NCBI GenBank assembly: GCA_037447655.1
Contig: JBBHKE010001056.1
Coordinates: 45,055-109,054, forward strand
Source: Zygnema cylindricum
Taxonomy: Eukaryota > Streptophyta > Zygnematophyceae > Zygnematales > Zygnemataceae
Reading direction: 5' to 3'
Length of the DNA stretch: 64,000 nucleotides
The first letter of the stretch is position 1. Each line of letters starts with the position of its first letter. The position numbers and the translations under genes are program-made. Below the pieces are notes generated by a model. The model was given only the letters and a program-made list of their open reading frames with translations, searched no databases and was not told where the DNA came from. Shown in pieces: positions 8,301 to 56,488 of this stretch.

Positions 8301-11300
8301 AAATACCAAGTCCGCGGTGCCTGTTTTAGTCCGTACAAGTTCTTTCGTAGCCGCCATACCTTCCCCTCCTTCGACACTACTCCCTCCGGAACTTTCATAT
8401 AAACCTCCTCATCTAAGTCACCATTCAAGAACGCCGTCTCTACGTCCATTTGGTGAATGTGCTTTTTGCCGGCAGCGGCAATAGCAATAATCATCCTCAA
8501 AGAATCAAACTGAACAACCGGTGCATATGTCTCCGTATAATCTATCCCCTCCGGTTGTTGAAAGCCCTTGCAAACTAGCCGAGCCTTATGTTTTACTACT
8601 TCCCCCGATACACCAGTTTTGGTTTTAAAAATCCACTTCGCATCAATAGCCTTTTTACCCTCTGGTAGGCTTACCTCCTCAAACGTACGGTTGTCGATAA
8701 TAGATTGAAGTTCTCGCTCCCATGCCGATTTCCAATGCTTCTCCCAATCGCATGATTTTCGTGCTTCCACATACGATTGCGGATCGCCCGGCTTATTTTC
8801 ACATAATGATTGCTATAAAAGAAAATCATCCTCCCTCTCCGCCGAAATAAAATAATATGAATTTTCCACATTCCCCTTACCATCAAAAGAAAGACGAGCC
8901 GGTTTCTTTCCCCTATTTTCTCGCATACTCCTCCTCGGCTCAAATTCTTTCTCCTCCTTTGCCGATTCCTCCTCAATGACATTTGGACCACTCGATTTAG
9001 AAGACGAAGATTTCCTCATGTCGGAAGACATTCGGGAATTTTTGCTTCTCCAATCCCCACCAATGTTACCAAAATTTACATTCTCCTTAATTTTACCTTT
9101 CCCCCACTCAACATTGGATGTGGATTCCGGCTCAATTTCCAAATCCGAACCCTCAATCTCATTAAGATCACCAATTTCAAATTCCTCATGAAAATCAAGA
9201 TTAGAATTTCGATTAGCCGATCGAGAGATTGTGGATAATAAGTCCTCGTGAAAATCCACATTTCTTGATTCCTCAATGATATTTCGAATCGGATCATAAA
9301 CTCGATAAAGACTCCCTTTCTCACTATATCCGACGAAATAACCACTCCAACTTCTCGATGCAAACTTACCCTTCCTCTTTTGTGCTTGAATATAAACCGA
9401 CGCACGACATCCCCAAATCCGAATGTGGTGTAGAGTAGGCTTTCGCCCAAACCACAACTCATACGGAGTTTTATCACCCGAAACCGGCGTGATTCGCCGA
9501 TTGCAAATATAATTCGCCGTTAAAATTGCATCGCCCCATAAATGAATACTCCTCCCGGATCCGTGTACCATGGATCGTACCATTTCTTGAAGAGTACGAT
9601 TTTTCCTCTCGGCAACGCCATTAGATTCCGGTGAATAAGATGCAGTATATTGATGAGAAATTCCCCATTCTTTACAATAAGGATCAAAAGCAAGAAATTC
9701 CCCTCCGTTATCCGATCTAATAGATTTTAACTTTCTCTCACATTGCCTTTCGGCCATCATATGCCACTCTTGAAAGCGTAAAAATGCTTCGGATTTGTGT
9801 TTAAGTAATATTACTCATGTGAAGCGAGAGAAGTCATCCACCACCACCATAATATATTTGTTTCCACCAATCGTCTCCGGTTTCACGTCCCCACATAAAT
9901 CAATGTGCACAAGATCAAGCGGATGCTTAGATCGATGCATCGGATCCTTAGCCGGATGCGGCTTTCGAATTTGTCTCCCTTTACTACACCCCTCACATCC
10001 GTTAATTTTCTCTCCCGACGCCAAGTCTAATCCCCTTACGCTTCCATTTTTAATCATCCGTCGTAAACTCGTCTCCGATGTGTGACACATTCGATGGTGC
10101 CACAAGGTGAGATCACCTTTTAATTCGGAAATTTGCGAAATAATGCCATTAGAACTTGGTTGGGATTTCGGCCGACGCCATTTTAGTCGACTATGCATAA
10201 AATCCGTGACCTCTCCTTCACCTATTTGTACACCATCAGATCGTACAATTTTTATTGTGGAATCTCCGTACGCAAGTACACTGCCGCCCGCTCGTTGAAT
10301 CTGCGGTACACTGAGAAGGTTCACTGAACCTTCAGGTAAGTACAAAACATTAGTTAATTGAGTTTGCGTAACTTTTTCTACCCCACGTGGGTCCAAACTT
10401 GGTAAATCCAACCGTACAGTACCCACGGTACTTATCGAAATCACTTGTCCGCTTGCGACAGTGATTCGTTTTGGTACCGTGAGTTCGCGAAAATCGTCAA
10501 AGAGTGAAGCATCGGTACAAACGTGATGTGACGCTCCTGATTCAATAATCCACTCTTTTTCGTGTAGCGTAGAACCTGCCAAAAGATCAAGCGACAGGTT
10601 AAGGGCGGAAAATATTTGCGTTTCGTCGCCTCCCTCAAAGTAATCGTCACCCATAAAGTGTCCTCCTCCTCTTCCATTGCGGCCTCCACGACCACCGCGG
10701 CCGCCAAGGCGACCACCACCACGTCCACCGTATCGACCGCCGCCGTCTCCTCTACCGCCGCCATTACCTCTACCGCCGCCGCCTCCTCTACCGCCCGCTC
10801 CTCCATTTTCAGCCTTTGAATAACATTGGGGGCTAATATGGCCCCATTTCCCGCAAAAATGGCATTGACGCTCCTTGTCCGGGCAAGAAGCCGCCATGTG
10901 ACCAAGTTTGCCGCACTGAAAGCAAGCAATATTGGTTAGATCTGAATATCCGGGTTGGGAAGGAGATCTCCCGGCCCTTTCGTGTCCTCTTCCCCCTCTT
11001 CCTCTCGGATTTCCACCTTTTCTACCTCCTCTTCCCCGAATATAATTTAGATCGGGCGTTTCCGGTGTCGTCGCATTGAGGGAACCGGTCGGTTGGGGTC
11101 CCCTCGATGAACTCGGACGATTCGCCTCGGTGGATTTGAGGAAAGTGATAATCGAATCCAAAGTGTTCGAATCCCTCGATAAAAGAATGTCCCTCAAATG
11201 TATCATTTTCTCCGGTAAGGCATGGATGAAGACCGATGCCTTATCACTCTCATCGATGAACTTTCCCAAGTTTGCGAGTTGCTCGATAATAATATTGAAT

Positions 11301-14300
11301 CTCTTCGCGGCTTCATCGATCGACTCACTCGACTTGACCTTAAATGAGGTATAATCGGTATAAATGTGTTGCCCCTTATTTTGAAGACTCTTTTCGAAGT
11401 GATTCTCAAGAGCCACCCAACAATCATGGGCAAATCTTCGGGTAAGGAATAGATCATGTATAGAAGTGCTACATGATTGAAATAAACCGCCGATAGCGGA
11501 AAGATTTTTCTTCGTCCACACACGATAAGCTCTCCGATCCGAGGTAGGCATCTTGTCCACCCCTTTTACCACCTTCCAAAGCCGTTTCAATTTAAATTGA
11601 CCTTTGATATATTTCTTCCACGATTGATAATTTGTCCCATTGAAGATGACAATTTTGCCGGACATAGATTCAACCGGTTCGTCCCCTTCACTCCAATCAT
11701 CAAGATCGGAATCATCATCGATTGGAAGTTTCCCCTTTCGAATTAATTCCCTCGTCTCCTCCTCATCTCCTCCACCTCCTTCCGTATCGCCGATGCTTTG
11801 ATCCGGAATCGGATCTCCGAATAATGGAGATCTAGTAACACGGTTTGCCTCGGAGATTCGCTGATCCACATAACGGAAAAGACCATCCATCAGTTTTTGG
11901 AGACGATCTCCCATCGCGTCATCTTCCTCCTTCTTTTTCCCCTCATTCTCCTCTTTTTGACCGACCGGATCGATCGGAACGGTCTCCTCAAAAGTTTTGC
12001 CGGTGAAAGCAAATGGAGTTTCTACTTCCGGATCCGAAGATGATTCGGATGGATCCGGAGGATCCGGGTCCGGAGGTTGCGGAAATATCGGAGAAGGCAT
12101 CAAAGGTGAAGGGGTATTTTTCTTCTTTCTCCCCATAGCGACCAAACTAGCCACACTTCTACACCTCAAGGGAGCACACAAGCTCCGATACCAATTGAAA
12201 GGATCTTACACAAAAATCAGAGTGCAAGACTACAGCGGAAGCATTAAAAAAAAATATCACACGAGAACGAACTGTCCACAAAAGCCAATATATTTCACGG
12301 ACATTTTCTCCCATAAAAGATTAACTTTCTACTCCCTCTAAGCTGCAGTATATAGTACAGTTATTGTGACGTCACTACTTCAAAATCTACCCAAATCATA
12401 TTGTGCGCACTAAGTGCGTACAAGTCAAAACGTGTCACAGCGAAACACAAAGAACTGCCGGCACAACTCACACGTACGACCAAAACTAACTAAAGACAAA
12501 ACATACATACTAACCGTACACACCAAACGCAACATAGCCTGGTCATAGTCAAACTGAATCTCCAAGAATCCAAGAAAACTACAATCCACTACACGACTAA
12601 ATAAAACCACTCGTGACCACTAACTTAGCGTAATGACAAATTAATCAGCCGCGCGACGGAGCGCGACGGCCGACTACAACTTAGACTGAAAAAGACAGAA
12701 TAGTCGGCCGCGCGACAGACCGCGACGGCCGATTACAAATTTTGACTTAACATGCTATACTTTACGACAAGACTTAAAAGTTGATTAGTCATGAAACGCT
12801 TAAATTCTCTTTTGTGATATTTGTGGTGCTAGATCAATTCGATTCAATAACCTTTCGGGACCTATTCCGTCAGGAATATGGAAGCTTCCTACTTTATATG
12901 GACTGTAAGTTATTTTCAGTTTTCTCTCACTGTATAGATTGTTATTATGAAAAAAAAACTACAGGTGTTTCCAATCCTCCATGTCATTACTCTAACGATT
13001 AAGATCTTAAACATAGATTCCGCACTTGGTAGTTTTGGGACGAGTTGTTGATTATTCGCTAGAAGTTCGAACCAAATGTCGCAGACTTGGCATTTGCAAG
13101 TAGGAAAGTTTTTTTGAATCAAGTTTACCTTGAAGTTCACTGCAAATGAAATGGTCTCGGATTTCAACGATGGAAAAAAACCCGCTTTGAAAAAATCCTA
13201 TTTTCTTGTCGGCTGTTGTCATCTATCTCCATCTGGATATTTGTCTCAAAAAAGTTTCTTACTGGCGATTCAGTGAGACCACTATTTGAAACGAAACTGG
13301 CTGTGTTGACTATGGTTTGGCATGCCTGTGAATAACACAAAAGTTCAAATTATCAAAGTTTGTTACTTTCAAAATTCTCATTTGTTCGCCGTTTCTATAT
13401 GCCAACTGGTCGGTTTACTCTTTTTTGATTCCATGTGCCTATGTTCTTCATCCGTGTATTTTCATGCCCTAAAGTTCAGTTTGACGTACAGGTATTTGTC
13501 ACACAATCGTCTGGTTGGTTCCATTCCTCCCACAATCGGACGCCTCAAGGGACTTTTTAAACTGTAAGGAAGATTGATTTGATTGAAAATTAAAAGAAAA
13601 GGAATATTCAGGTTGAGGAGTTTGCACTCAAGAAAATAAATGTAAATCGGACAAAATATTTAGCATTTAGTATTTTAAAATTAACATTGGAAGTGAAAAG
13701 TTGACATATGAAAATGATTGGAAACCGGTTTTGTTTTGACCTTTCACAGCACAAAATTCTATAGTTATAAGTCAACGTCTGGCATTGGATGTGGAAACTG
13801 GAAAACATTGAATAACAAAATTTTATATTGAACGTGTACTCAATAGAAACAAATTCATATAGAAATTATGATTTGCATTATAACTAAATAAATTAGATTG
13901 TTTTGTGTATAAGTATAACATTAGGATTAATTGGAATCATTACACATAGTTTGACTTTTGCAAATATCACAACTTGATAACGGTAGTTGAAGAGCTGAAA
14001 ATAATATGTTGCGAATTACTTATGAAATGGCACATGACAAACAAGTGCACAAGTAAAATAATTTGGAACGAAATGAAAACGCAAGGCGTCGGTAACCAAG
14101 TCCCGAGTTCTAGTTTTCACAAGTCGACGGTCGATTGTCAGCCATCACATATTTAGCATTGAAAGTCGATCACAAAGTAAGAAATCTGTCCTTGATAAAG
14201 AATCATAAGGATGAGGATGGTGGAAATTGATTGAACATCAAAATTCATTATTTGGAGTTTGAATTTAAAGGATTTTATGACAAAATTAGAAAAATTCATG

Positions 14301-24029: not shown

Positions 24030-25850
24030 GTCAATTCAGAAGAGTGACCCTAAGTGACACGTGTAAATTAGTCTTTTTTTTATGTTGTTTATTATAACTT
24101 ATAGATACAACAGCTTTTTCAAAATATTTTAAACTAAATTTAAGGTTTGGTTTTCATTTTGAGCTTCCGACACAAATTTTTGATAATCCATAGGTGTGTT
24201 TTCAAGTTTCGGCACTACTGAAGTATTTTGTTGAACATTTAATTTATAAGTTCATTTCTTTTTTGTCTCTCTTTAGGAAGTATCTGTAATTCATCAGTTG
24301 GTATTTTTCATTTTCAACTTTGAAGACATTTATTTCACCGCTCGGCTTTCTACCCTTTTTTTGTTTTGAGAATAAGCGTGCATTAACCATTACTGACATT
24401 ATTCCTGACCCTTACTGCTTTGTAATGGTGACATATATAGATTTTATGAAGATGAGTATCATCGTTTTTCAGATGAACTTAAAACGTTCTCGAGCATTTG
24501 GCACATAGGTAAAGTGCATGGATGTTTTAAAAAACAAATGTTGTTTTAACATAATTCATTTATTTTTTTGTTTTGATCGACCTGTTTTAAACCAATTATG
24601 TGGCTCGCGCCTAATCTAGAGTTAACCCTTGATTTTCGGTTTGTTTTGAAAAGTTACATTTCATGATGCAAACATGTTAACAAAAGTTAAAGAATTGTTT
24701 TTCATATATATTTTCGTTAGATACGAGAAAAATCAAGACAAAATTTTCTTTAGTTGACTTCCCGTTAATTCCTATATGCCTAGGTCTATGTCATGAAATG
24801 AAACATAAGGGCACATTAAGCTTGTCATTTCAAACTTTCAACAATAATTGCGATGACCCCCTCCAAATTTGTAGGTACTTTTACCCCATTGTACTATAGG
24901 CGTTACCTTGAAATGGTCAAACTTTTTTGTGCCCAAAGGGATATGGCCTCTTAACTATAATTACCAGATTTTCTAAACTCTGACAAGTTCTCACTCGTTA
25001 TCTTCGACGCTGCACTATTTTCCTTTAAAAAAAGGGACTGTCGTAATGACAATTGAAACGAAAAAAAAAAAAATTGCAAGTTCCGTATCATTTTTCCCCA
25101 TCACGACTTGTCCTCTTTTCGTGAGGTAATATCAGTTTTCCCAACTTATCCCTAATGTTGAAATTTTACAACCTACACATATTTTAGATGTTATATGTCA
25201 CCTCTTAACATCTTTACCACCTACTTCAATTTTTGTTCATCACTCTAATTTCAATTAAGTACATTGCACGAGCTACGCAAGTACTTTCCAGAACCGAAAT
25301 CGTAAATAAATGGTAACAACATATTTCCACAAGTGGCCCAAAATGAGCCACGTTAACTATTCAATGTACTTAAATCTGATAAATTTAATTCACTACAAAA
25401 ATGTACTGTACTGTATTTATCTTATTTAGTGCGTACGTTATCTATGTACGAAATTCCAAGGCACAGCGGAACGTGCATCTGTACCACAAACAAGACCTTG
25501 TGAGAATGTCGGTGCGGACTGCCAATGATTGGCCGCTGGCCCTCCCGAAACAGCTTTGCCCGTAGCATTACGGGGAGGATTCTGCGAGCTTTCCGGTGTA
25601 CGGCCAAATGATTGTTTTCGACATCCGAGGGTTCTACGCATAGAAGAGAAAGAAGCTTTATTTCAAAAAGTGCGATGGAAAAAACCATCAAAGTACAAAG
25701 GGTTTCAAAAAAGGGGAAAAAAACGCTTAGTGCTAAAAAATAGCCAAAGGAAACTAAGGAAAAGAAAACATGTGAAAACACCAAATCAAACTAGAAAAAC
25801 TGCCAAAAACAAACAAATTTACTAAAGATGACACTATACAAGTTGACTAC
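24030..25850. other. Intergenic DNA, possible 3' LTR at its right end
   Basis: AT-rich, with no exon or RNA gene recognised. The part from about 25430 to 25850 borders the gypsy polypurine tract and is where a 3' LTR should sit (it would begin TGTAGTCAAC at 25851 on the minus strand). I could not find a matching LTR on the other side of the element, so this is unproven. Confidence 0.35.
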
Positions 25851-25860
25851 ACCTATAATT

Positions 25861-25875
25861 CCCCCCCCTAGCTCT
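25861..25875 (-). other. Candidate polypurine tract of the gypsy element
   Basis: The minus strand reads AAAGAGCTAGGGGGGGGAA just downstream of the end of pol, the expected site for plus-strand priming. Confidence 0.5.
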
Positions 25876-25912
25876 TTAACCTGCGGAGGAGCTAGTAAAA
25901 ACCGTTGGCAGC

Positions 25913-26494
25913 TCACGACAACCAATTGCAAAACCAGTGGCCAGCCGGCACAGTCGTCAATGGAGGAACTAAGCACTCTATGTGGAACCCTTGGTTACAA
26001 TGGTCGCACAAGAGCATAGAAGTCTCGCCGTTTGCTCGCCTGCAAATAGTACATTCCGTCGCCTCTATGATTGGCATCCTCATCGGATCCATATCCTGAG
26101 ACAAATCTGGTAAATAGCAAGGTGTAAAGTTCTTTGAATGCTCTCGAACTATCCTTGTATCCGCACCCTGCAAACCCAACATCCCATTAGCATCCATTTC
26201 CACCACACGAAGAATGTGTGGTGAAACATCCATGTACAAAGTGTCGAAAGATTGTCGTCGGAGGAACACGTAATCTCCGACCCGATAAGATTTCTGTTGA
26301 GTCTTGTAACTGCCACTTCGCATGGTGGTAAAGCGCAAATTATCCCGATGTTGGGCAATCTGCAAATTATCAAAAGCCATGGGCATCTCACGAGCGAAAA
26401 GCAAAGCACGGCGAGTTAGTTCTTCTAAGAATATGGTATCAGACATTAGAGGCAAAGGTAAACTTGCGGCTAACTGAATATTCCGACCGAGCAA
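25913..26494 (-). pseudogene. Integrase C-terminal region with GPY-like module and PHD finger
   Basis: The middle (YRVGDYVFLRR ... HILRVVEMD) has the look of a Ty3 integrase C-terminal GPY/F module. The last 46 codons (26053-25916) fit a PHD finger: C-x2-C-x11-C-x2-C-x4-H-x2-C-x14-C, with the hallmark LLCDHCNQGFHIEC and the Trp two residues before the seventh ligand (HWFC). The eighth ligand is missing: Leu lies where the last Cys is expected and a stop follows soon after, but a Cys codon lies just out of frame, suggesting a recent frameshift. PHD fingers typically read histone H3 tails, so a role in target choice for integration is an inference. Chromodomain was considered and not seen. Confidence 0.75.
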
Positions 26495-26500
26495 GGGTTC

Positions 26501-27168
26501 TCAACCGAAGAGAAAATAGTACGAGCAAAAATTAGCCAAACTAGCTTGTACGGACATCCGGTATCCCATGGTGATATAGCCTAAGGATTCATCGCAGACG
26601 GAGATGTGTTTCTCCAAACAATGCTTTCGGAGAGCACGCTTAAACGTTTGGACAGCTCTTTTCGCAAAGCCATCGGCTTGTGGGTGATCACGGCTCGTCC
26701 GGCGATGATCAATTAAAGCTTCATTCAACATCTTTTGAAATTCCCCTCGGAACTCCGTACCCTGGTCCGTGAGAACCTCCGCAGGAGCACCATAACGCAT
26801 TAGAACGTGCTCTTTAAAAGCAGCGGTGGTCAATTTAGCGGTCTTGTGGGGAAGAGCGACCACCTCTACCCACTTGCTCAAATTTTCATTAGTGTCATGA
26901 TGTATTGTTTCCCTGTTCTAGATAAGGGAAACGGTACGGCGAGATCCACGGACCAGCGATAAAACAATCGTCTGATAGGTTATGGTTGTAGAGACACCTG
27001 CCGATTAGAGAAAGAGGTGCGTAGTCGGTCGCATGTGAGGCATTTGTGGAGAATGGCCGCCACATCGGCTTGCATTCCGGACCACCAAAAGTTTGCCTGT
27101 ACAAGGCTCAAAGTATGCTTGGTCCCATAATGGCCAAGCTCGGTATGTATCTGCTCAATCAAAGACAA
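26501..27168 (-). pseudogene. Gypsy integrase, zinc-binding and catalytic core
   Basis: The HHCC module reads HTELGHYGTKHTLSL ... CLTCDRLR (27168-26980). After frameshifts the core shows the first Asp in SVDLAVPFPLSRTGKQY (near 26945), then SKWVEVVALPHKTAKL and the second Asp in VLTDQGTEF (26765-26767). At the third catalytic position, 35 residues later in HPQADGFAKRAVQTF, there is Lys (26660-26662) where the family has Glu. The protein would therefore be inactive even without the frameshifts. Confidence 0.85.
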
Positions 27169-27971: not shown

Positions 27972-28933
27972 TCATTGAGAGGAGAAGCGATCGTGCTTAA
28001 ATTTCATCACAAAACGACGGTAATAATTGGCTAGTCCGAGGAAAGCCCTCAAACTAGTGAGATCGGTGGGAGCCGGCAATTTGGTGATCGCCTCTACTTT
28101 AGCTTCCAAGGGGGTGATGCCCTTAGCCGAAATAAAATGGACGAGATAAGGCACTCACTCCGCACCAAAAGTACACTTGGCTGGGTGACACTTTAGTTCG
28201 ACTTTCTTCAATTGGGTAAGAACCCACTCAATGTGGCGAGCGTGCTCCTCCACAGTGGCGGAAGTGATTATCAAGTCATCAATGTGGCACCGAGCGAATT
28301 TACATCCACCCAGCACCGAATCCATGAAATTTTGGAACACGGCTGGCGCGTTTTTAAGACCGAAGGGCATGACTGCCCATTCCCACCGACCATCACTGCC
28401 CCAAAAGCCAGTTTTATGCCTATCTTTTTCCCTGATTTTAATCTGGTTAAATCCTTTTCGTAAGTCAAAGATGCTAAAGAACTTCGCACTACCTACATGG
28501 TCGAATATTTCCTTAGTTAGCGGCATTGGGTGGCGGTCTTCAACTGTGCGTGCATTGAGCTCTAGACCCCACACATTCTTCGCTCACTAAAATTTCTGTC
28601 GGAGTCTTTCTTCCTAGGCATGACTGTGGGGGCGGCAAAGGTGGAATCTGACCGGTAAATAAGACCAGCTTCTTCTAATTTTGCGCATCTTTTGTCCACC
28701 ATCTCCCATTCCACCTCCGAGAGACGGTGTTTCGGCTCAAAGATAGGTCGATCATCTTCAAGGTCAATTGACATCTTGTAAGTGGAATGGCTTCTTAGGT
28801 CATTCATGGAGAAAGCAAACGCATCTATATGGCGGGTTACTGTGTCACTTAATAGTGCATGTTCCGCCGTTGTGAGACAAGAACTGAACTTCCATTTGGG
28901 CGTCTCAAGGCTCTTGATAGTGAAAGCTTCCAA
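27972..28933 (-). pseudogene. Gypsy reverse transcriptase
   Basis: From 28933: the N-terminal RT region with EPKHRLSEVEWEMVDK and GLIYRSDSTFAAP. After a one-base shift near 28570: LNARTVEDRHPMPL, FFSIFDLRKGFNQIKI, WAVMPFGLKNAPAVFQNFMD, and the active-site box as HIDDLII (28275-28286; most elements have YxDD). After an in-frame TGA at 28155-28157: VPYLVHFISAKGI and RAFLGLANYYRRF. The blocks are in the right order with Ty3/gypsy spacing. Confidence 0.9.
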
Positions 28934-29279: not shown

Positions 29280-30330
29280 GATGGTTGCACAGGGTGATTC
29301 TGTGCGTAGCGACTAGCTGCAAGGCCGAGACTTGAGATAAATGATAAAGACTGAGTATCCATGACCCTACCCAACAAAGTGCAACGCTATCTATCCGTAA
29401 GGCCGGGGGCCGCAGTAATGCTTGGAATAAAATGCATGAGATGCTCCCGTTTTGTGGCCGTAGGCTCCTCTAACTCTCCAGTGACATTATTTTGGAGCAT
29501 GCTTGGACCGTGATGAGAGTATTCATGGGAAATAGGGTCTGACACTAAAGTAAGAAGGACCTTGATCGGCTGGCCAAGTACATTAATGTTGTAATTTGGA
29601 GGGTAATCAGTTTGGACACATGATTGGACTTGGTGAAAGGGTAGCAAAGCGGTCGTAATCTCTGTAGTGGGAGGTCTTACAAACTAATAGCCTCACGAAG
29701 ACGACCAACATCGATTAGGTTCGTCCATTTGGAACGAACCCGATGTGCCAGGACCCATGCTGAGCGGCATCTATAATTAGCGGGGTTCCAATATGGGCTT
29801 ATACTCAGCCAAAATTGTAGGCCGAGGATTATTATAAAAGGCGACGTTCTCTAAAATGTATCCGATAGGCTTGGCCATGGTTTGAAGAAAATGAAGGACC
29901 CTTAAAAGCTCAAAAAACAATTTGGTACGAAGATCCGCTAAACAAGACCTTTGCCGCCCGAGACATGCCTTGACACTCCCACCCTCTGAAAACAAGGTCT
30001 ATCGGTTTCACATCCTGTAGATGATGATTACTAAGGATGCGGATGTCTTGTGGAAGAGCACTGTGCATGTGTAGAAAGGCTGACTTTGGAAACAACTGTG
30101 GATACTGTGAATGCAAGAGATTACAGTGGTGCAATTGTGCTTTTCTAGCTAATGCATCAATTCTACAGCATAGTAGTGGTGGATGAGGAGACCATTCCGT
30201 AAACAAGACAATAGTGAAGTTTCGATCCCAGCGAATAGATCTAAAATAACGACCCCGTCCGTATGAGGACTCAGCTCTACGGGCTTCCAACTGATAGGAA
30301 AGAAACCTGAAAGATCGGTTGCAACAATGG
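29280..30330 (-). pseudogene. Cytosine-5 DNA methyltransferase domain inside the gypsy element
   Basis: C5 methyltransferase motifs occur in canonical order across three reading frames. Motif I: VVILDLFAGIETSLL (about 30250-30215), the SAM-binding start. Then IDALARKAQLHH and ALPQDIRIL. Motif IV: IDLVFRGWECQGMSRA (around 29980), where the Cys before Gln is the catalytic nucleophile and Glu replaces the usual Pro. Then LADLRTKLFFELLRVLHFL. Motif VI: PIGYILENVAFY (29843-29851 codes ENV). Motif VIII: AHRVRSKWTNLIDVGRLREA (about 29690-29750). The C-terminal part has LEEPTATKREHLMHF and, after an in-frame TAG at 29387-29389, LLGRVMD (motif X-like). At least three frameshifts and one stop make it a pseudogene. 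It sits between the protease and RT of the same element, in the same orientation. By family it would methylate cytosine at C5. Confidence 0.88.
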
Positions 30331-30589
30331 GTATAGGAGGAATAGGCGCTAATGGAATAGATAATGTTGACTTATAAATATTGTCAAATGTGTGAGAATT
30401 GATAAAAAAACCCGGTTTCGCAAAGAGCTCAGGTAACGGAGAACTTTCATGTATAATTTTTTCAGCCGAAAGAGAGTAGAAAATTTCCTCCCCAACGGAG
30501 TTCCCCAAAAATGCTAGAAGAGCCGTAGCCGAGTGAGCCATAGTGGGCAAAGGTCGGCGAGCTGAATTGCGAAGGATGCAGATTTTGCG

Positions 30590-30930
30590 TTTCGGAAAGT
30601 GTGATGGTCGGTAGGAGAATATTTGGTCGTGAATGTCCACGCCACCGCCAATACGGAATATAACGTCTTGACCCACCAAACACTCATAGTCGTCACATTT
30701 AGTGACCAATGCTCTAACGACAATTTCAACGTACTTATTTCCGGTTCCTTTGTGAAACCGAAAGATGAGCGGGTCCTTTGTGATTCTGAGGACCGGCTCT
30801 GTGGTCCCAACCGAAGTAAGAATGCGGGAAGCGGTTGCCTGAAGCTTGTCTGCTGTCAGACTAAGCTTGAGTGCCAACCCGGATCCGAGGATCACAGGTT
30901 TGGCCCCGGTTTCCATGAGTGGAAGAGTGT
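30590..30930 (-). pseudogene. Gypsy retropepsin-like protease
   Basis: From 30916 the frame gives METGAKPVILGSGLALKLSL, followed about 60 residues later by ECLVGQDVIF. These match the DTGA ... and VLG(x)D blocks of gypsy proteases. The catalytic Asp is replaced by Glu (GAA at 30911-30913). The frame continues without a break into the methyltransferase up to 30149, evidence that both were parts of one polyprotein. Confidence 0.7.
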
Positions 30931-31125
30931 GGTGAACACCGTTCGGTGAGAATGATCCCCGAAAGTTATCAAGGAAACTGATTTAGGGATCAAGATTAGG
31001 ACGCTCTTCCGTAGTAACCAGTTGAACTGCTAAGAGATTGCGGTTTAGCTACAGAGCCCTCAAAGCAGTTGCAGCTACGACCTCATCAACGAAAGGAAGG
31101 GCTTTCGGTACATCCTCCAACATCG

Positions 31126-32817
31126 CTAAAAAATACTTAAACACTCCTTCACCCGATGAGCCTCATTAATAATGATGTCCAATATGGTAAGGGCCTCTGC
31201 TGCGATGGTAAGAGCGGTTTCAGGTAGGGAAGGCAGAGGCTCTTGTGCAAATGAGAGTGGGACACGAGAATTTTGTAATTTGCTCACTCGGTTATGGTTT
31301 GCTGAGTCCTTTTCAAATGTGGCCACCCGTTGTTGGACGGTGGAATCGCGAAAGGTTTGCCCGGCCAACGACGGCATGTGGACAACGGTTTTAGCCATCC
31401 CAATAAACTGGGGTTTCATTTTTGCCATGAAAGCTGCAAATTGTTTTTTCATCATGTACGCCATTGTGGCTTGAAACTCGGCCTTCTCTCTCTCTCTACG
31501 AGAGATCTTAAGAGGAGCTTCCTCTTTCCTGGTCTCCTTAGGTAGAGTGACTGGTTTCGCGGAACGGGCTAGAATTCCCCAATTCTTTATTTGATTTTCA
31601 TAAGTGTAGTTAGGGTCCTTAATGTGGCACCGATTGACATAATGTCCTTTCTCGTGGCAATGAGTGCAAGTGGCTGCCTTGTCTGAACACATGCGCGCAT
31701 CGTGCCCGGTTCTTCCACATCAGAAGCACATGCGATCACTAGGACTAACTGGAGGAGTTCCCATGGCTGGCGTCTTTTGGGGCCTAAATGGAGGCCATGG
31801 GTTTTTAGGTGGAGTAGGAGATGGATTAAATGGTTCACTATGAGGAGGTTAGGACGTGTCCCACCAAGATGTTTGCATCTCATACTCTATAGTATATCGA
31901 GTCGCTTACTGAAATGTGAATTTAAGTCCATACATCTAACTTAGGTGGTTTTGAATAAACCTCTTTGATGGACTTGGAAACTATCCCACAAATTTTTGGA
32001 CAGCCTCCGCATCGGACATGAGGTTCGGTAATGCTTCTCGCAAAGTTTCCATTCGGGCTCGTAAGGCGGGCGCGGTTTCGCCCGTCCTACGCTCGAAGTT
32101 CATCTACTCTTTGATTTGATCCAGATTTGGCATCCGGTACTCCTCTTGGAGGATGTCAAACATGATTGAGAGAGGGTCACGTAAATGAATGGTTCCCGCC
32201 GCTCTTGCTAAGACCGCTGCAAGAGTAGCCACCGCACACTGATGCGGAACCTCAGGGATAGCAGGATACAACTCATCTTCGTTAAAATCAAATACCGCCG
32301 GTTTTGCGTCCTAGTATGGGATATCCATTTGGCCGAGGACTTTTGGTAACCATGCAAAGGGAGCCACGTACTCTGTCATCTCAAGAACATCTTCGTACTT
32401 GCGAGTGAAGAGAGTGAGGGCCGTACCACGTAGGTATCGACAGAAAAGGGAAAAGGCGACACAAAAGGCAAACCTATCCTGATATCTAAATGCTAAATCC
32501 CTCATTTGTGTGTCGTATAACATCCGGAAATGCGATAAAGACATGGTGTCTTTTAATCTAGAAAAGCAGAATTGCATCCTACCCATGGATCCCTCGGTAT
32601 AGGAAGCCATGTCGTAAAGAGGGGGATGAGCCGGTTGTGCCAAAATTGGGCTTGCACAAAACATACGAGTGTGAGTTGGAAAGGTTTCCTCTAGAAAGTC
32701 TTCTTCAGTTCCCTCTAGGTATGACCTAGATGAAACCGAGGATAATGATGACATAGAGGGGAGACCAAACCGCACTGATGGCGATATGCAATCCACAATT
32801 TGATCGGATGTGGTCAA
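31126..32817 (-). pseudogene. Gypsy gag with two CCHC zinc knuckles
   Basis: From 32817 an N-terminal region is followed by the helical capsid-like part (FCFSRLKDTMSLSHFRML, VPHQCAVATLAAVLARA, LRDPLSIMFDILQEEYRM). It is interrupted by in-frame TAG codons at 32311-32313 and at two further points before 31980, but otherwise stays in one frame. A Pro-rich linker leads to two knuckles near 31620-31730: CF(stop)CGRTGHDARMC and CTHCHEKGHYVNRC, the first holding an in-frame TGA. A Lys/Glu-rich tail with AYMMKKQFAAFMAKMK follows to 31126. Assignment as gag rests on the knuckles and on position before the protease. Confidence 0.75.
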
Positions 32818-33523
32818 TGATTTGGGAAAATCCGAAAGATTTAACTGCGAAAGACGATACAGTGTACCACCTCAGGTGGACCAAGAAAAATAAGGAAGGT
32901 TATCCCAATGTGTGGGCATAAACCAAAGAGAAAACCCTGACTACAATATTGAAATGTTTTGTACAACCTAACCGAGGTGGAACACGTGTTAGACCAATCC
33001 ACTCGTCCAGTCAACACACTCAGTCACTATCAAGACCCGCTGGTCATATCTGGTCATATCTAGGAAGAAGCCAGTTTACCAAAATCTTTACCTTGCAAAC
33101 AATTGGCAAGGCTAAAAATCCATATCTATAAAAACAAGAAAATTGTATCCAGGCACCCTTGGGTGCAGATCTACAATAACACAGCCGAGAAAAGGTCTAC
33201 ATACTGCCACTCACGACAAGATCTAGCAAGAAATCCCACTCCAAATAGTCACCCAAAAAACCTAGGCCACTTAGGGCCAGATAGCATGCATGGAAAGGAA
33301 GAAAATGCAAATGCACAATAAGTAAGGTTCACGATGGAACCACTCCACACCGATCCCATACACGAATGTCCACGCTCAATCGAAAGGCTCTTGCACCCGC
33401 GAGGCATCGACTACTTACAGACACCTTTAGTACTCTGGTGAGCACTAAGGGTGAACTGAACTTGTTCGAAGCAAGTCGGGTTTTCCAAGGCCCCCTAAGA
33501 TAAATTTCGCTTTACCAAATTCG

Positions 33524-33990: not shown

Positions 33991-35332
33991 ACCTAAATCT
34001 GCAGACTAGAAATAGGTTGGCAACAAGATAGAAAATAAGGATTGCAAGAAATAAAGAACAAGAACAAAACAAAATGTTTTTTTTTTTTTATAAAATAAAA
34101 TTTATAATATTAATTATTTTTGTAATATTTTTATTTCAAAGCAAAAGTGAAAACGAAATGAAAATTGGAAAAAAAATAGAAGAGACCAAGCTATGAATTA
34201 AAACTGAAATTGAAAGGTGATATTTTTTTCTTTATAAAATAAATTTAATATTTTTAATAATTTTATTCAAATAAAAGCTTTTGAAAAATTAAAGCTTTTG
34301 AAATGTGAGGCTTTTGGACAAAAATACTAAACCTCAAAGTAGCCACTAGGCTCTTGGGTCTTCATTGTATTCTTTACAAGAGTTATCTCATAGGTAAGCA
34401 ACGAAGCAAAATAAATAGTTCCAACAAAAAACAAGGAAAACCCCTAATTTGGTCAAAATCCACTTCCCCACTCCCAACCGAAATGCAAACAAAACAAACA
34501 CAAACACTCCTAACCCCTCCGCTGCCCGTAGAAGGCACAGCCGGATCTAGATGCCTCTCCACCCGAACTTCATTCCACCACTTCCCAAAAATAACACAAG
34601 TTGGAGGGAAACCTTCCAAACTTGGCTTTGAGCCGTGTGGATTAAAGAGCGTGGGCAGAAATACAAGGTAAATGTTCTTAAACTATCCAGCCTCTATAGC
34701 TAGCTAGCAAAACAAGAGAGAAAAGTGGGCAATCCGTGAGAGAGAGAGCAAGAAAGAAGCTCAACCGCCAAGAGAAAATTCTTGTCCAAAAGCTAAATTC
34801 TGTGAGTATGAGAATTAGCCTAAGTAAGACTAAGCTAAGCATTACGCGAAAATAGCCTAAGTCTAGTCTACTTTACATGCATAAACCTAATTAAGATGTT
34901 GGCCAATATGCGGCCAACATCGTCTTTCCGAGGGTAAAAACCCTCCCTAACTAGATATGCGCGCGAAACTACATGGATTCGCGACTTAAATAAATACGAG
35001 GTATCGAAGCGTGGCCGATGCTACCAAAAATCGCGATTCGGCGCCAAACGATACTTCGCCTCGATACCCCAAAAATTGCGTGCATACGCACGAAACAAAA
35101 CATGTTGCACAAAATGAAACATATCGCCCGAAATATTCTCGAAAATCACGCCGCGTTGATACTCAAAAATCTTGTACCTTGAAAATAAACAAAACAAAAC
35201 GTGTGCACGAAATTAGTATGTATTTAATCGTACGCGAACGAAAATTGCATTCACATCATAAACACATGAACCGACGAAAACTCGCAGGTGCGAACGCAAA
35301 TTATGCACGCTTGCCAAAATCATGCGTGCATG
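33991..35332. other. No gene seen; A-rich DNA with one perfect hairpin
   Basis: AT-rich DNA without recognisable coding signal. At 34895-34921 there is a perfect 10-bp stem (GATGTTGGCC / GGCCAACATC) with a 7-nt loop. Part of this stretch may be the missing gypsy 5' LTR. Confidence 0.4.
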
Positions 35333-35532
35333 CTTGAAACCGCGCGCGCATGTCTTAAACTGCGCGTGCATACAAAAAATTGCGCGTGCGTGAAAAATAT
35401 CGCGCGTGCGTGAAGAACACCGCACGTGCGTGAGAAATACTGCGCGTGCGTGGGAATTGCCGTCCGTGCGTGAATTATATCGTGCGCACACGCCGAATAT
35501 CGCGCGTGCTAGCATGATATCGTGCGCGCGAG
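35333..35532. repeat. 20-bp minisatellite, ten units
   Basis: Ten consecutive 20-nt units of the form nnnAAATATCGCGCGTGCGTG, for example AAAAATATCGCGCGTGCGTG. The core GCGCGTGCGTG is conserved and the first 8-9 bases vary. It is a GC-rich island in AT-rich surroundings. The minus-strand open frame rich in HARA is an artefact. Confidence 0.85.
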
Positions 35533-38500
35533 CAATCGACAGGATGCGGCATGACAGAAATACAGATTTTAAAACAGAGTAGAATAGAATTTGGCATTAA
35601 TATGAAAATTCTTAAACATTGTAACATTTTGGTCGTAAACGGACCATTAATGAAAACTATAGTTATTTCTAAGATTCTACTATGTTGATTCTACTATGTT
35701 TATCTTGTTTGTTTACTAAAGATCTCTCCGTACTCTAATCTTTACCATCTCTATCTATTTGTGTGACTCCCAAGACCCATTTGCGTATTTGATTTGTGGG
35801 CGGTTTAAGTGGTCTGTGGTTACGGGAAACTTTCCCGTTAGCTTAGATGATCGACCAGACACGACAAGTTATGGGCCCACCTATACGGGGCCCAAATGAG
35901 TTCAAAATTCCGAGAGAAGAATGTAACACCCTATTTAAGAAGGTTGAGAGTAGAGAAGGAGAATCGGGGGTTTTTTCACCAACAACAAGAGCACCAAATC
36001 AGATCCGAGAATTGGATGCGAGTGAAGGGAGAGCCTTGGACAACAACGTCGAAGTGCTCGAATGGGGAAGGTTAACAAAAGAGATAGTTGAGAGATCATC
36101 CATGACAACAAGAATCGGATTGATCCTATCCCTAATCAACAAAGTCTACGATGAAGCAATGTCCCTAAAAAAAAACATCTCCCAGCATATTTAGCAAACA
36201 CACATCTCGTTCTACATACATCTCCTTTTAAAGACAAAACTATCACTCCTTCTACTCCCGTTGCTCATTCAGTAAAGGTTTGTTCTCACCACATTAAAGA
36301 ACAACGCGAAACGAGTGGAAGTGGGAAAATGTCGTCGAGAAGCTGATCGCTGCCGATGGCTCCACCGAGGTGGTGATGCACAAAATGGCCTCCAACAGTG
36401 AACCTGGCATCAAAGAATCAATCGGTCAAATCAATTACCAAGCACGTGAACGGGTAGAGACAAAACAACTTGTCAAAACCCAAATCTTATAGACTTTGTC
36501 TGCGATTCCTGTATTCATATCAAAGTCGAACATAGCAGAGAGATCCTTGCATTCAGATCAAAGTCGAACACAACAGAGAGGAGACAGGCATAAATACTGA
36601 AAATGGAGGAGAGAAAATTGGAAACAGAAAGACCTCTAACTATTCCATTGCAAACAAAACTCCAGACTGCACAACGGTCTCGAACTTGTGCCTTCAGAAA
36701 GTTAATGTTGGAGACGGAAAAGGCCTCTCACGAAGGCAGATAAAAAGGGGAGAATAACTTACTATTTTGGGGAAGCAATTAGAGGAGATCCACCATCACC
36801 CGAGAGCATGTGGCAGTATCTCCATCCGCTATCTTCCGAAAGAGCTGCCAAATCAGTCCTAAAACCAACGTCAAAAGCATCAATGGATGGGACGCCATCC
36901 AGCCCATGACAAAGGAGTCAAGCAAAAATGAGAATACTGAAGTTCTAACCCTGTAGAGAAAGAATCAAAACGGCGAACAAAAAAATTGCACATTTAACTT
37001 TGCAAATATTGTTGCAGCAACTGACGCAAAAATGGAATATGGCTTAGATAAGTTTGGGGCCATCAGCCCCAAGTGGAGCACATGAAAAAACCAAGATAAA
37101 ATCAAGGATCACACATCTCAATAGGAGACGCAAATGAGTTCTTACCTCAAAAAGGTCAGAGGTCAGGTGTCTCAGAACGACGTCACGCTCATCCAAATCG
37201 CCTTTGAAAGGCGTGATGATGATATCCACGGAGTTGTTCAAACTCAAATGAATGCTCCACCGAAGGCCCACATCGAGGACCAAAATATAGTTCTACGCAG
37301 AATGTCAGCTTGTGAGACACGTCAATATCGAGATTAAAAGAGGCAACTAGGTGAAAAACGCAAACCCGCAATAGAGCAGTCAAAGAATGTCTACACCAAA
37401 AATTGAAGAACATCTGACTTTACAAGGGAGAAAATCACCAAGTCTCAATCGGAGATAAAAGATGTAAGCAACGGCAAAAAAAAATCAGACAATAAGATAG
37501 TTGATTCTATGAAAGAAGAATCAGGAAAGATTGACGAAAAGGGGTATGACTCCACTCACCGAATAAAGGGTGATGACGAGAAAAAGATCCAAAAAGTTTC
37601 AAAGATCAACGGTAGCCGAGTGGCTACATGCGGTCCGATGAGCACAGATTCTCGTCATTTTGACCAAGGCAGGGAGAGTAAGAACATAGATCTGCAAAAT
37701 AGAAGAAATAGTTTTAATGTGTTAGAAATTGGACAACGATAAGAGGGAAACAAGCAAGGAGGAGAAGGCAAATTGAGAGGGAGCAAAGACGACCAAGAAG
37801 TGGGAGGCATTCAACGAACATTTGTCATCAAATCAAACGAGGAGTTCATCTGTTTCAAAAATTATGAGAATAGTGGGAGAAAGGGTAACAAAGATGACAT
37901 CTTACCATCTAGGAAGGGAGTCAGAACAGATTTCTCCACTTGTCAAGCTTGCTTCATTGTCCAATCCAAAGGGAGCCTTGAATCCTCCACCTTTCGCATC
38001 AATGACTACCATTACAAGCCTTAAATCCTCCACCTTCCGCATCAATGACGACCTTTGCAAGGCAGGAGCAAAATCATTTCACACGAAAAAATACTCTGCA
38101 AAACAAATGAAATACATGTCAGTAACTCCACCAAAAATGAATAAGATTCATGTATCAAATTTTCTCACACCAACGATCGACAAATGGAAAGTGAGTAAGA
38201 AAGCTCAAACAAGGAGCAAACTAATTTCTGACAAAAATGCAATTGAGATCAAAGCACACACAGGAAAGGAGATCTCAAGGAATTGAATCTCAGTATCAAT
38301 AGATCTAGCCGGGCAAAGGACGGATTTGTCGAGGGCAATAACTCACATCCTCCTCAATGAAGACACCTCAAAGGAAAGAAATCCACCAATAGGAGGAGAT
38401 CTTGTCATCGAGGCTGCCGGTAAGGAATCTGCAATCAGTGGAGGAGCAAGTAAGTTTCACATAAAAAAAGATCAGACAGAAACGAATAAAGGACGAAAAA

Positions 38501-41940: not shown

Positions 41941-42445
41941 ATTGCGTCCCTCTAGCCCAATCTGTCCTCCCTCCCTCCCTCCCTTCCTCCCTCCCTCCCT
42001 CCCTCCCTCCCTCCTTTCCTCCCCTCCTCTCTCCCTCCCTCCTTTCCTCCCCTCCTCTCTCCCTCCCTCCTTTCCTCCCCTCCTCTCTCCCTCCCTCCTT
42101 TCCTCCCCTCCTCTCTCCCTCCCTCCCAATCTACCCTCCCTCCCTCGCAATCTGCCCTTCCAAACTGCCTGCCCTCTCTCCCTCCCTCCCTCCCTCCCTC
42201 CCTCCCTCCTTTCCCTCTTTTCTCTCTCCCTTCCTCCCTCTCTCCCTCCCTCCCTCCCTCCCTCTCTCACTTCCTCCCTCCCTCCCTCCCAATCTGCCCT
42301 CCCTCCCTCCCTCTCTCCTAATCTCCCTCCCTCTCTCTCTCTCCCTCACTCTCTCCTTTCCAATCTGCCTAGCCTCCCTCCCAATCTGCGCTCTCTCTCT
42401 CCCAATCTGCCTCCCAATTTTCCTCCCTCCCAATCTCCCCTTTTT
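41940..42445 (+). repeat. CCCTCCCT pyrimidine array, first block
   Basis: Near-pure pyrimidine with CCCT units broken by CCCAATCTGCCCT words. The long Ser/Leu/Pro frame on plus and the Gly/Arg/Glu frame on minus are artefacts of the repeat. Confidence 0.95.
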
Positions 42446-42617
42446 GTTACATTTTTTGGTCGTTATTTGTGATATCAGTCACGTTAAGTGAAGAGCGGGC
42501 GCCTCTTTGAAGACTCCTGAGTGTATGTGGGCCTAAGGTACCCGGTTTGTCTTTTTTTGTTTTTTTTTTTTTGACTTATTTATTTATTTATATATTTTTT
42601 TTTTAATATATCAATAT

Positions 42618-42619
<2 letters not shown>

Positions 42620-42678
<59 letters not shown>
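42620..42678. repeat. (TA)n microsatellite
   Basis: About 55-60 nt of alternating TA between the two pyrimidine blocks. Confidence 0.9.
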
Positions 42679-42680
<2 letters not shown>

Positions 42681-42686
42681 ACCCTC

Positions 42687-44235
42687 CCAATCTGCCCTCC
42701 CTCCCTCCCTCTCTCCCTCTCTCACACTTTCCCTCTCTCCCTCTCTCTCACCCTGTCTCTTCCCTCCCTCCCCCTCCCTCTCCCTCCATCATTTTATTCC
42801 TTGCTCCCTCCCTCTCAACCCTCCCTCTCACCCTCATAAACTGCCCTCCATCCCAATCTGGCCTCCCTCCCAATCTGCCCTCCCTCCCTCCCTCCCTCCC
42901 TCTCTCACTCACAATCTGCACTCCCTCCCTCCCAATCTGCCCTCCCTCTTCCCAATTTGCCCTCTCTTCCTCCCTCCCTCCCTCCCTCCCTCCCTCCTTC
43001 TCTCACTCCTTCCCTCTATCCCTCTCTCTCTCCCTCCCTCTCTCTCACTCTGTCTCACCCCTCTCATCCTCCCTCTCTCTCTCACTCCCTTCTCCCCTCT
43101 CTCCCAATCTACCTTTCCTCCATCATTCTATTCCTTCCTCCCTCTCCCCCAACCCTTCCTCTATCTTCCTAATTTGCCCTCCCTCCATTCCAATCTGCTC
43201 TCCCTCCCTCCTTCCCTCCCTCCCTCTCTCTAACCTTGTCTCACCCCTCTCACCCTCCCACCCTCTCTCACTCCCTCCCCCCCTCCCTCGCTCTCTCTCC
43301 CTCCCAATCTACCCTCCCTCCCTCTCTCCCAATCTGCCCTCCCTACCTCCCTCTCTCTCTCTCCCTTTCTCACTCCATCCATTCTCACCTCCCAATCTAC
43401 CCTCCTTCCCTCCCAATCTGCCCTCCCTCCATCCCTCCATCCCTCCCAATATGCCGCCCCACTCTCCCACCCTCCTTGCCCTCCCTCTCTTTCTCCCTCT
43501 CTCCCTCCTTCCCTCCCTCTTCATCCCAATCTGCCCACCCTCTTATCCCTCCCTCCCTCCCAATCTGCCCTCCCTCCCAATCTGCCCTCTCTCCCTCCCT
43601 CACTCTCTCCCTCCCAAACTACCCTCCCTCCCTCTTACCTCGCATCCTCCCTCTCTCCCGATCCGCTCTCTCTCCCTCCCAATCTTCCCTCTCCCCCTCT
43701 CTCTCACCCTCCCTCCCTCCCTCCCCCTCTCTCTCCCAAACTACCCTCCCTCCTTCCCTCCCTCCCTCCCTCCCTCCCTCCCAATCTGCCCTCCCTCCCA
43801 ATCTGCCCTCTCTCCCCCCCTCACTCTCTCCCTCCCAAACTACCCTCCCTCCCTCTTACCTCACATCCTCCCTCTCTCCCAATCCGCCCTCTCTCCCGCC
43901 CTCTCTCCCTCCCTCCCTCCCTCCCTCCCAATCTGCCCTCCCTCCCAATCTGCCCTCTCTCTCTCCCAAACTACCCTCCCTCTCTCCCTCCCTCCCTCCC
44001 TCTTTCCCTCTCTCACTCCCTCCGTTCCTCCCTCACAATATGCACTGCCTCCCTCCAAATCTGCTCTCCTCCCCTACTTCCGTCCCTCCCTCTCTCCCTC
44101 CCTCCCTCTTTCTCTCCATCTCTCCCTCTCTCCCTCCCTCCCTCCCTCCCTCCCTCCCTCCCTCCCTTCCTCCCTTCCTCCCTCCCTCCCTCCCTCTCCC
44201 TTTTTTCCTTCCTCCCTCCCTCCCTTCCTCACATT
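42687..44235 (+). repeat. CCCTCCCT pyrimidine array, second block
   Basis: About 1.55 kb of CTCCCTCC units with interspersed CCCAATCTGCCCT and CCCAAACTACCCT words. The 342- and 274-codon open frames here are repeat artefacts. On the minus strand it is GGGAGGGA, able in principle to form G-quadruplex or triplex structures. Confidence 0.95.
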
Positions 44236-44439
44236 CAGACAACATTCGTTTTCTATTTTCTTAGAGATTTTTTAAAAGTTTGTTTGGAAGAGTCTGGAGA
44301 CACATCTAAAGTATGGTTTTTTTCGAAGATTTTAGCATTTTTTTTGCAAGGGATTCCTTTGTTGAAATGGGACGTATGCAATGTTTTTTTAGCTTTTTTG
44401 CATCTTTGGTTTCATTTATAGGTCTGAAAGAAAAACATT

Positions 44440-44705
44440 TTGTTTCCAGAAAAAAGTACAATCTAGTGTCAGAAAAAGTACAATATGGCTTTGGGAAAAA
44501 GCACAAACGCTTGGTCGGAAAAAAGTGTAACAAGGGTCAGAAAAAAGTGTAACTAGGGTCGGAAAAAAGTGTAACTAGGGTCGGAAAAAAGTGTAACTAG
44601 GGTCGGAAAAAAGTGCAACTAGGGTCGGAAAAAAGTGTAATTTAGGGTCGGAAAAAAGTCCAAAATGGGTTTGGAAAATAGTACAATCTAGGATTCGTAA
44701 AGTTG
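44440..44705 (+). repeat. 22-bp tandem repeat (AGGGTCGGAAAAAAGTGTAACT)
   Basis: About seven near-identical 22-nt units (roughly 44510-44660), flanked by more diverged units such as CCAGAAAAAAGTACAATCT. There are no unique spacers, so it is not a CRISPR-type array. Confidence 0.88.
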
Positions 44706-50314: not shown

Positions 50315-50447
50315 GACGACCAGAGGTGAAGAAAAAAACTGGAGACAAAAAAACCTTGAAAAGCCACCCGAAAAAAAATATCGTTTTAGTTTTTACTTAA
50401 ATTGCTTCTCGGCTCAAACAATAAGCTTTGGGAAATATCCTTGTGTT

Positions 50448-53260: not shown

Positions 53261-56488
<3,228 letters not shown>

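Follow-up and report, generated by a model that had tools for sequence, protein, structure and literature searches.

In a 64,000-nt stretch of DNA from Zygnema cylindricum, analysed at its full length and called the window hereafter, we found a degenerate gypsy-type element on the minus strand, spanning about 35556-25849, which very probably carries a C5 DNA methyltransferase (MTase) of DNMT3 type between its protease-like region and its reverse transcriptase (RT). The copy in the window is dead, its MTase is broken by frameshifts and stops and its 3' end is missing, so that the finding is one of a family of elements and not of a working gene at this locus. The name gypsy rests on the domain order and the RVT_1 match, and the protease and gag labels on position. 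The following parts were recognised, in the reading direction of the element:

34325 to 35556, minus strand: repeat A1, the 5' end of the element, which begins TGTCATGCC like other copies
32311 to 32871, minus strand: first part of a gag-like open reading frame (ORF), 186 aa, assigned from position alone
31627 to 31728, minus strand: two CCHC zinc-knuckle patterns (CX2CX4HX4C twice), the first interrupted by a stop
30149 to 30982, minus strand: aspartic-protease-like region, linker and MTase motif I in a single ORF of 277 aa
29366 to 30247, minus strand: broken domain read as a C5 DNA methyltransferase of DNMT3 type, motifs I, IV (ECQ), VI, VIII and X in order
28155 to 28583, minus strand: core part of the reverse transcriptase (PF00078, 6.3e-23)
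26501 to 26917, minus strand: integrase core fragment (rve; PF00665, 3.4e-7, 30.9 bits, cut-off of 32.6 not reached)
25913 to 26500, minus strand: integrase C-terminal region with a PHD finger at 26053-25919 (PF00628, 2.8e-11)
25849 to 25882, minus strand: polyG tract (about 25880) and the first bases of repeat B1, 34 bp, 85% identical to copy C449

Repeat A1 of the window is 78% identical to repeat A of copy C449 over about 800 bp, with 67-69% in its outer part, and beyond the B1 stub no further similarity of the window copy to its relatives was found in the compared stretch, which corresponds to a 3' truncation. The gag-like ORF and the CCHC patterns gave no Pfam call, and the protease-like region gave no Pfam match, its label having been assigned by eye. 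Judged by eye, the protease motif near 30916 on the minus strand reads METGA in the window copy. As the usual protease motif is DTG, the window protease is probably dead.

The MTase motifs of the window copy (L001) were located on the minus strand at about 30241 (I), 29984 (IV), 29854 (VI), 29748 (VIII) and 29377 (X). A frameshift-tolerant alignment of the raw DNA with human DNMT3A scored 94 over 30247-29701 (54 identities in 190 columns), whereas dinucleotide shuffles reached a mean of 35.4 and a maximum of 55 (n = 500), and shuffles of a shorter stretch a mean of 33.5 and a maximum of 58 (n = 300). This is the best DNMT3A-like place on both strands of the window, with non-overlapping segments scoring at most 42. 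The frame-tolerant scores against four references were 94 for DNMT3A, 53 for DNMT2, 50 for M.HhaI and 37 for a part of DNMT1, and the z value of 13.9 for DNMT3A compares with 4.9, 4.8 and 0.8 for the other three; DNMT3 is therefore the best class among these four references. Because the window copy is too broken, none of its six single-frame pieces covering protease and MTase matched Pfam, and its single-frame pieces gave no MTase match in PDB. When the MTase pieces were joined, X included, they reached 20.9 bits with PF00145, under the cut-off of 22, and all 29 PDB sequences at E up to 1 were DNMT3A, 3B or 3C (best 1e-8); the frames for joining were chosen by hand, which flatters these E-values, a flaw from which the shuffles are free. 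Compared with DNMT3A, the IX/X block of the window copy scores no better than chance (293 of 500 shuffles were as good) and draws its support only from the other copies, with motif IX readable in 26 and motif X in 30 of 40.

The six pieces without a Pfam match and the chance-level IX/X block are what chance motif matches would give, and against such a reading stand the score of 94 over shuffle maxima of 55-58 and the PF00145 match of a relative at 1.2e-12, by which we consider it excluded, with a probability close to nil. The same scores, together with relatives that pass PF00145, bear out the initial annotation, which had read a C5 MTase in a gypsy element on the element's own strand. Its claim that motifs I, IV, VI, VIII and a motif X-like block lie in order between protease and RT agrees with the collinear DNMT3A alignment and the motif read-out, and the protease frame runs unbroken into motif I, as it had stated, in one ORF (30982-30149). 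The Pfam search that it had proposed came out divided, as stretches from other copies exceed the PF00145 cut-off in four of four cases and the pieces of the window itself stay below.

The 352.8-Mb assembly (2689 contigs) was searched with the 277-aa ORF of protease, linker and motif I. We obtained at least 141 matches, the window copy included (140 of 1288 candidates were scored, so the copy count is a lower bound). Of these 141 scored matches, 121 reach beyond motif I, and 106 of the 121, the window copy being one of them, also start near the beginning of the query. Related copies that all lack an MTase between protease and RT had been named beforehand as the observation that would speak against the annotation; what we found is that 106 of 141 cover both the protease-like region and motif I. 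The idea that a host MTase gene or its retrocopy landed by chance in one gypsy copy has nothing in its favour beyond the single copy of the window; it is excluded by the many copies, and both the 106 of 141 matches and a locus of a related clade in which one open frame holds MTase and RT together (L067; PF00145 2.6e-13, PF00078 5.9e-27) leave it hardly any probability.

The motifs were then read out in 40 copies, namely 30 search loci, the window copy among them, and 10 copies picked for long open frames. Motif I was readable in 27, IV in 25, VI in 34, VIII in 30, IX in 26 and X in 30 copies; a single copy, L029, had no readable motif. All 28 copies with at least four readable motifs show the canonical order I-IV-VI-VIII-IX-X. 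The MTase stretches of four other copies matched PF00145 at 1.2e-12, 4.4e-10, 1.5e-12 and 6.3e-7, all of them over the cut-off, and the stretch of one relative matched DNMT3A (1.3e-10) and M.HhaI (0.0027) in PDB. In copy C449 (L002) a frame of 1643 aa is open from the protease-like region through the MTase. No relative was found in the viral and prokaryote collections searched.

Of the 40 copies surveyed in the window's clade, 25 have a readable motif IV, and all 25 show ECQ, a count which losses of the Cys would escape because the search pattern required CQG. Here the Pro before the catalytic Cys, a DNMT3-type feature, is missing and Glu is found instead. A PF00145 profile search of the genome gave at least 123 matches over the cut-off (123 of 782 candidates scored). 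Thirty PF00145 loci (L062-L091) comprise 22 with GWPCQ, 5 with ECQ, 1 with GGPPCQG and 2 without a readable motif; four of the five ECQ loci are copies already in the survey (C82, C1344, C1407, C1915). The locus that reads GGPPCQG (L068) is perhaps an exon of a host MET1/CMT-like methyltransferase. In a tree built from 18 element MTases plus DNMT3A and M.HhaI, the clades ECQ, PCQa and PCQb each received a support of 100/99, and MTase identity between the ECQ and PCQ clades is 39-41% (four pairs); at least three diverged MTase clades are present in this one genome. With ECQ in 25 of 25 copies of the window's clade and PCQ in two related clades, ECQ does mark a subfamily, as had been proposed from the window copy. 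The single-frame locus L067 belongs to PCQa, a clade with the domain order of the window's family, and in PCQb a protease-like ORF, recognised by eye, lies ahead of the MTase of L064, whose fetched stretch stops short of the RT. The three clades group together with a support of 95/95, obtained with two outside references that were both flagged for long branches, and since there are just these two, a single capture of the MTase for all three clades is only suggested by the sequences.

Chromoviruses among the Ty3/gypsy elements carry a chromodomain behind the integrase. Our family resembles them in having a histone-reader type domain at this place and differs from them in that the domain is a PHD finger, that an MTase is present and that the repeats are arranged as A-B-A-B. 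No chromodomain was found by Pfam in the window, L042, L092 and L094, where the PHD finger was found instead, and membership of the chromoviruses was rejected. Both the window finger and that of L042 reach 43.7 bits with PF00628 (cut-off 24), and in L042 finger and integrase C-terminal region lie in one ORF. The last Cys of the C4HC3 pattern is lost in the window copy and present in all seven relatives looked at. A full C4HC3 follows the integrase C-terminal region in six of seven other 3' regions, with one zinc ligand changed in the seventh, so that the pairing with a PHD finger first seen in the window recurs in all 7 other copies of its clade with a 3' region read. Two PCQa copies have a more diverged finger at the same place (24.1 and 20.3 bits, cut-off 24); MTase and PHD finger have therefore been kept together across two clades. 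According to PMC9915684, the PHD family of Zygnema cf. cylindricum is at least 9-fold larger than in the other Zygnema strains, and this expansion may in part consist of the element family described here. For annotation this is a warning, as such elements can swell the number of DNMT3 or PHD genes counted in a genome.

Constraint on the MTase was estimated from 15 open stretches in four groups (a 58 aa stretch of L021 was left out). In all 82 between-group pairs dS was beyond the range of the method, with dN from 0.11 to 0.28, and protein identity was 76-83% in six such pairs. The 23 within-group pairs gave dN/dS values of 0.16-0.66, for rows chosen for open frames, which biases toward low values. 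A protein conserved across groups at saturated dS is difficult to explain unless selection acted during the active life of the elements. All 25 readable copies have the catalytic Cys, and 33 of 34 have the Glu of motif VI; against a retained use of the enzyme speaks that many copies are decayed (motif I readable in 27 and IV in 25 of 40). That the enzyme is of DNMT3 type and also that the element has kept a use for it appears, taken jointly, likely to us.

We propose that the MTase would be packaged with the RT and would methylate the freshly copied DNA of the element after reverse transcription and before its insertion, which would mark the element DNA as host-like or shield it. The PHD finger would read a histone tail and steer the integrase, as is thought for the chromodomain in chromoviruses. 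Self-methylation of the cDNA, to which we give about an even chance, is favoured because the MTase lies beside the RT in Pol and the SymbioDIRS-Dnmt3 MTases are active in yeast, where they methylate CG as reported in PMC5890265. For KnitGypsy-Dnmt3, the published gypsy MTase, the same report gives no methylation in yeast, a result that its authors call inconclusive. The proposed targeting of the integrase by the finger is as evenly balanced.

Lying beside the catalytic Cys, the change to ECQ could impair catalysis. The MTase of the window's clade might then have ceased to be a cytosine methylase and have been kept as a DNA- or RNA-binding or structural component of the particle; all 25 readable copies have Glu where C5 MTases have Pro, which the related clades keep. 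We nevertheless hold this unlikely, as the Cys is present in each of the 25 (the pattern required CQG), the Glu of motif VI in 33 of 34, and motif VIII can be read in 30 of 40 copies. The natural ECQ/PCQ split of the active site offers a ready test of the need for catalysis. An action on host chromatin instead of element cDNA, either on silencing or by damping transposition, seems to us similarly improbable: the MTase shares its Pol with a finger of chromatin-reader type, and slowed transposition was raised as an option by de Mendoza and colleagues in 2018 (PMC5890265), yet MTase and RT lie side by side in one polyprotein, and the nearest DNA is the cDNA.

Element ends were fetched for seven relatives, of which six have the B-A-B arrangement, six have A1, and five have both, with A1 on the left and B1-A2-B2 on the right (C1344, C1915, C1063, C704 and C449). 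A1 and A2 are 100% identical in C1344, 99.6% in C1915 (A1 compared within the limits of the fetched piece), 99.6% in C1063, 97.0% in C704 and 80.4% in C449; the copies with repeat pairs of 99.6-100% identity are therefore recent. C1407 has B-A-B with a shortened A2, its left end not being found, and C2577 has A1 and B1 only. The window copy keeps only A1 and the B1 stub of the A-coding-B-A-B repeats, which the initial annotation had missed, and because of this layout and the lost 3' end no ordinary LTR pair was found in the window. No tRNA-type primer site was seen right behind A1 in four copies. In PCQa, the 3.9-kb stretches fetched at both ends of C1374 and at the 3' end of C544 showed no A-B-A-B repeats.

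Repeat A begins with TGTC and repeat B ends with GACA. Four of five copies are flanked by perfect 4-bp target-site duplications (TSDs; TTGG, CCCT, TTGT and ACTC), and the chance of at least four perfect 4-bp TSDs in five copies is about 1e-9. The old copy C449 has an imperfect TSD, with the flanks TCAT and GCAT. The joint between B1 and A2 reads GACA-GC-TGTC in five of six copies with B-A-B. B1 starts directly behind the polyG tract in C1344, C1407, C1915 and the window copy, and the A2-B2 joint puts the end of A beside this same start of B (C1344, C1915, C1063, C449); in a normal LTR element these two points would form the outer termini of the cDNA. A-coding-B-A-B proviruses with perfect 4-bp TSDs suggest that a circular or tandem form is inserted by the integrase. 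In the simplest reading, the outer ends of the element DNA would be linked to give a circle or tandem, which the integrase would open at the conserved GACA-GC-TGTC joint, by which the A-B-A-B layout would be regenerated. Such a circular or tandem step before insertion falls, in our estimate, just short of an even chance. As an alternative to end-joining, the layout may come from copying by template switches, as modelled for the DIRS elements, retrotransposons that are not known to make TSDs.

Returning to end-joining, we tentatively extend it, with slightly less confidence than in the circular or tandem step itself, to a wider proposal: the ends of A and B would be joined in a circle or tandem, a DDE integrase would open the palindrome-like GACA-GC-TGTC joint, leaving 4-bp TSDs and keeping the A-B joint, and the MTase would act on the exposed extrachromosomal form, which would explain the recurrence of retroelement DNA MTases in A-B-A-B elements. 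If true, this would cover DIRS elements with Dam, SymbioDIRS-Dnmt3, KnitGypsy-Dnmt3 and the present family, with SymbioLINE-Dnmt as an exception. A-B-A-B repeats and TSDs together make the puzzle of the DIRS-like layout testable in an integrase element.

The class of retrotransposon-borne MTases is a known one, as the initial annotation had noted. For Klebsormidium nitens, a gypsy Pol with a DNMT3-type MTase has been published as KnitGypsy-Dnmt3 (de Mendoza et al. 2018, PMC5890265), which in that account shares with the window family the gypsy domain set, an unrearranged DNMT3-type MTase inside the Pol ORF, the lack of introns, a constrained MTase and a DIRS-like repeat order, the last already noted by de Mendoza and colleagues in the legend of their Fig. 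4. In our material the corresponding features are distributed over copies: RVT_1 and an rve fragment under its cut-off in the window, MTase and RT in one frame in L067, and the A-coding-B-A-B repeats in the relatives. Our family differs in the PHD finger behind the integrase and in its documented TSDs, PHD fingers and target site both being absent from the main text of PMC5890265, and further in the ECQ motif IV of the window's clade and in the occurrence of at least three MTase clades within a single genome. SymbioDIRS-Dnmt3 of dinoflagellates, as described in the same paper, likewise has a DNMT3 MTase beside the RT in Pol and A-coding-B-A-B repeats; it carries a tyrosine recombinase, whereas the window family has an rve-type integrase and 4-bp TSDs. 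DIRS elements have a tyrosine recombinase, and DIRS membership was rejected on the rve integrase fragment and the 4-bp TSDs. Plant DRM enzymes, like the window MTase, are DNMT3-related enzymes of streptophytes, with motifs VI-X placed before I-V (a permutation given in general terms in PMC5890265); the family described here has the unpermuted order I to X, and a DRM identity is thereby excluded.

With reference to the 2018 work, a 2025 paper mentions that LTR Copia and DIRS elements of streptophytes and dinoflagellates carry DNMT3 (PMC12344493), and a 2019 paper gives MTase transposons as absent from land plants such as tracheophytes (PMC6338049), which is not in conflict with an algal host. 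Among the matches listed, judged by titles and the starts of abstracts, there was no published account of a gypsy element with an MTase that bears a PHD finger or has documented TSDs. Neither an ECQ/PCQ split nor the presence of three clades in a single genome turned up in the literature searched, which included passages of PMC5890265, PMC6338049, PMC12344493, PMC8775202, PMC9289625, PMC6453930 and PMC9915684. Within this literature the class is known, and the PHD pairing, the ECQ change, the three clades in one genome and the TSD-bounded A-B-A-B proviruses are apparently new. DNMT3 in gypsy-type elements is not confined to a few copies of one alga; in this genome such elements are numerous and include recent copies. 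In the two clades checked they carry a DNA-methylating enzyme together with a finger of chromatin-reader type, tools that hosts normally use for the silencing of such elements.

Elsewhere in the window, a little decayed Ty1/copia element lies at 7256-12205 on the minus strand, with three long adjoining ORFs (gag PF14223, integrase-SH3 PF25597, RVT_2 4.9e-78). A protein kinase gene of at least two exons is located at 48657-50392, also on the minus strand (PF00069 at 7.1e-20 in the first exon and at 0.0039, under the cut-off, in the second). Repetitive DNA was noted at three places: a strongly strand-skewed CCCT-rich repeat field with a GC skew of -0.87 and long spurious ORFs (42000-44275), a tandem array with a 22-bp unit in 6.6 copies and 94% match (44513-44659), and about 67 copies of a 7-bp unit (ATTGGAC, 70% match) at 53760-54230. 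An ORF near this last array resembles, by eye, a fragment of a CDP-alcohol phosphatidyltransferase.
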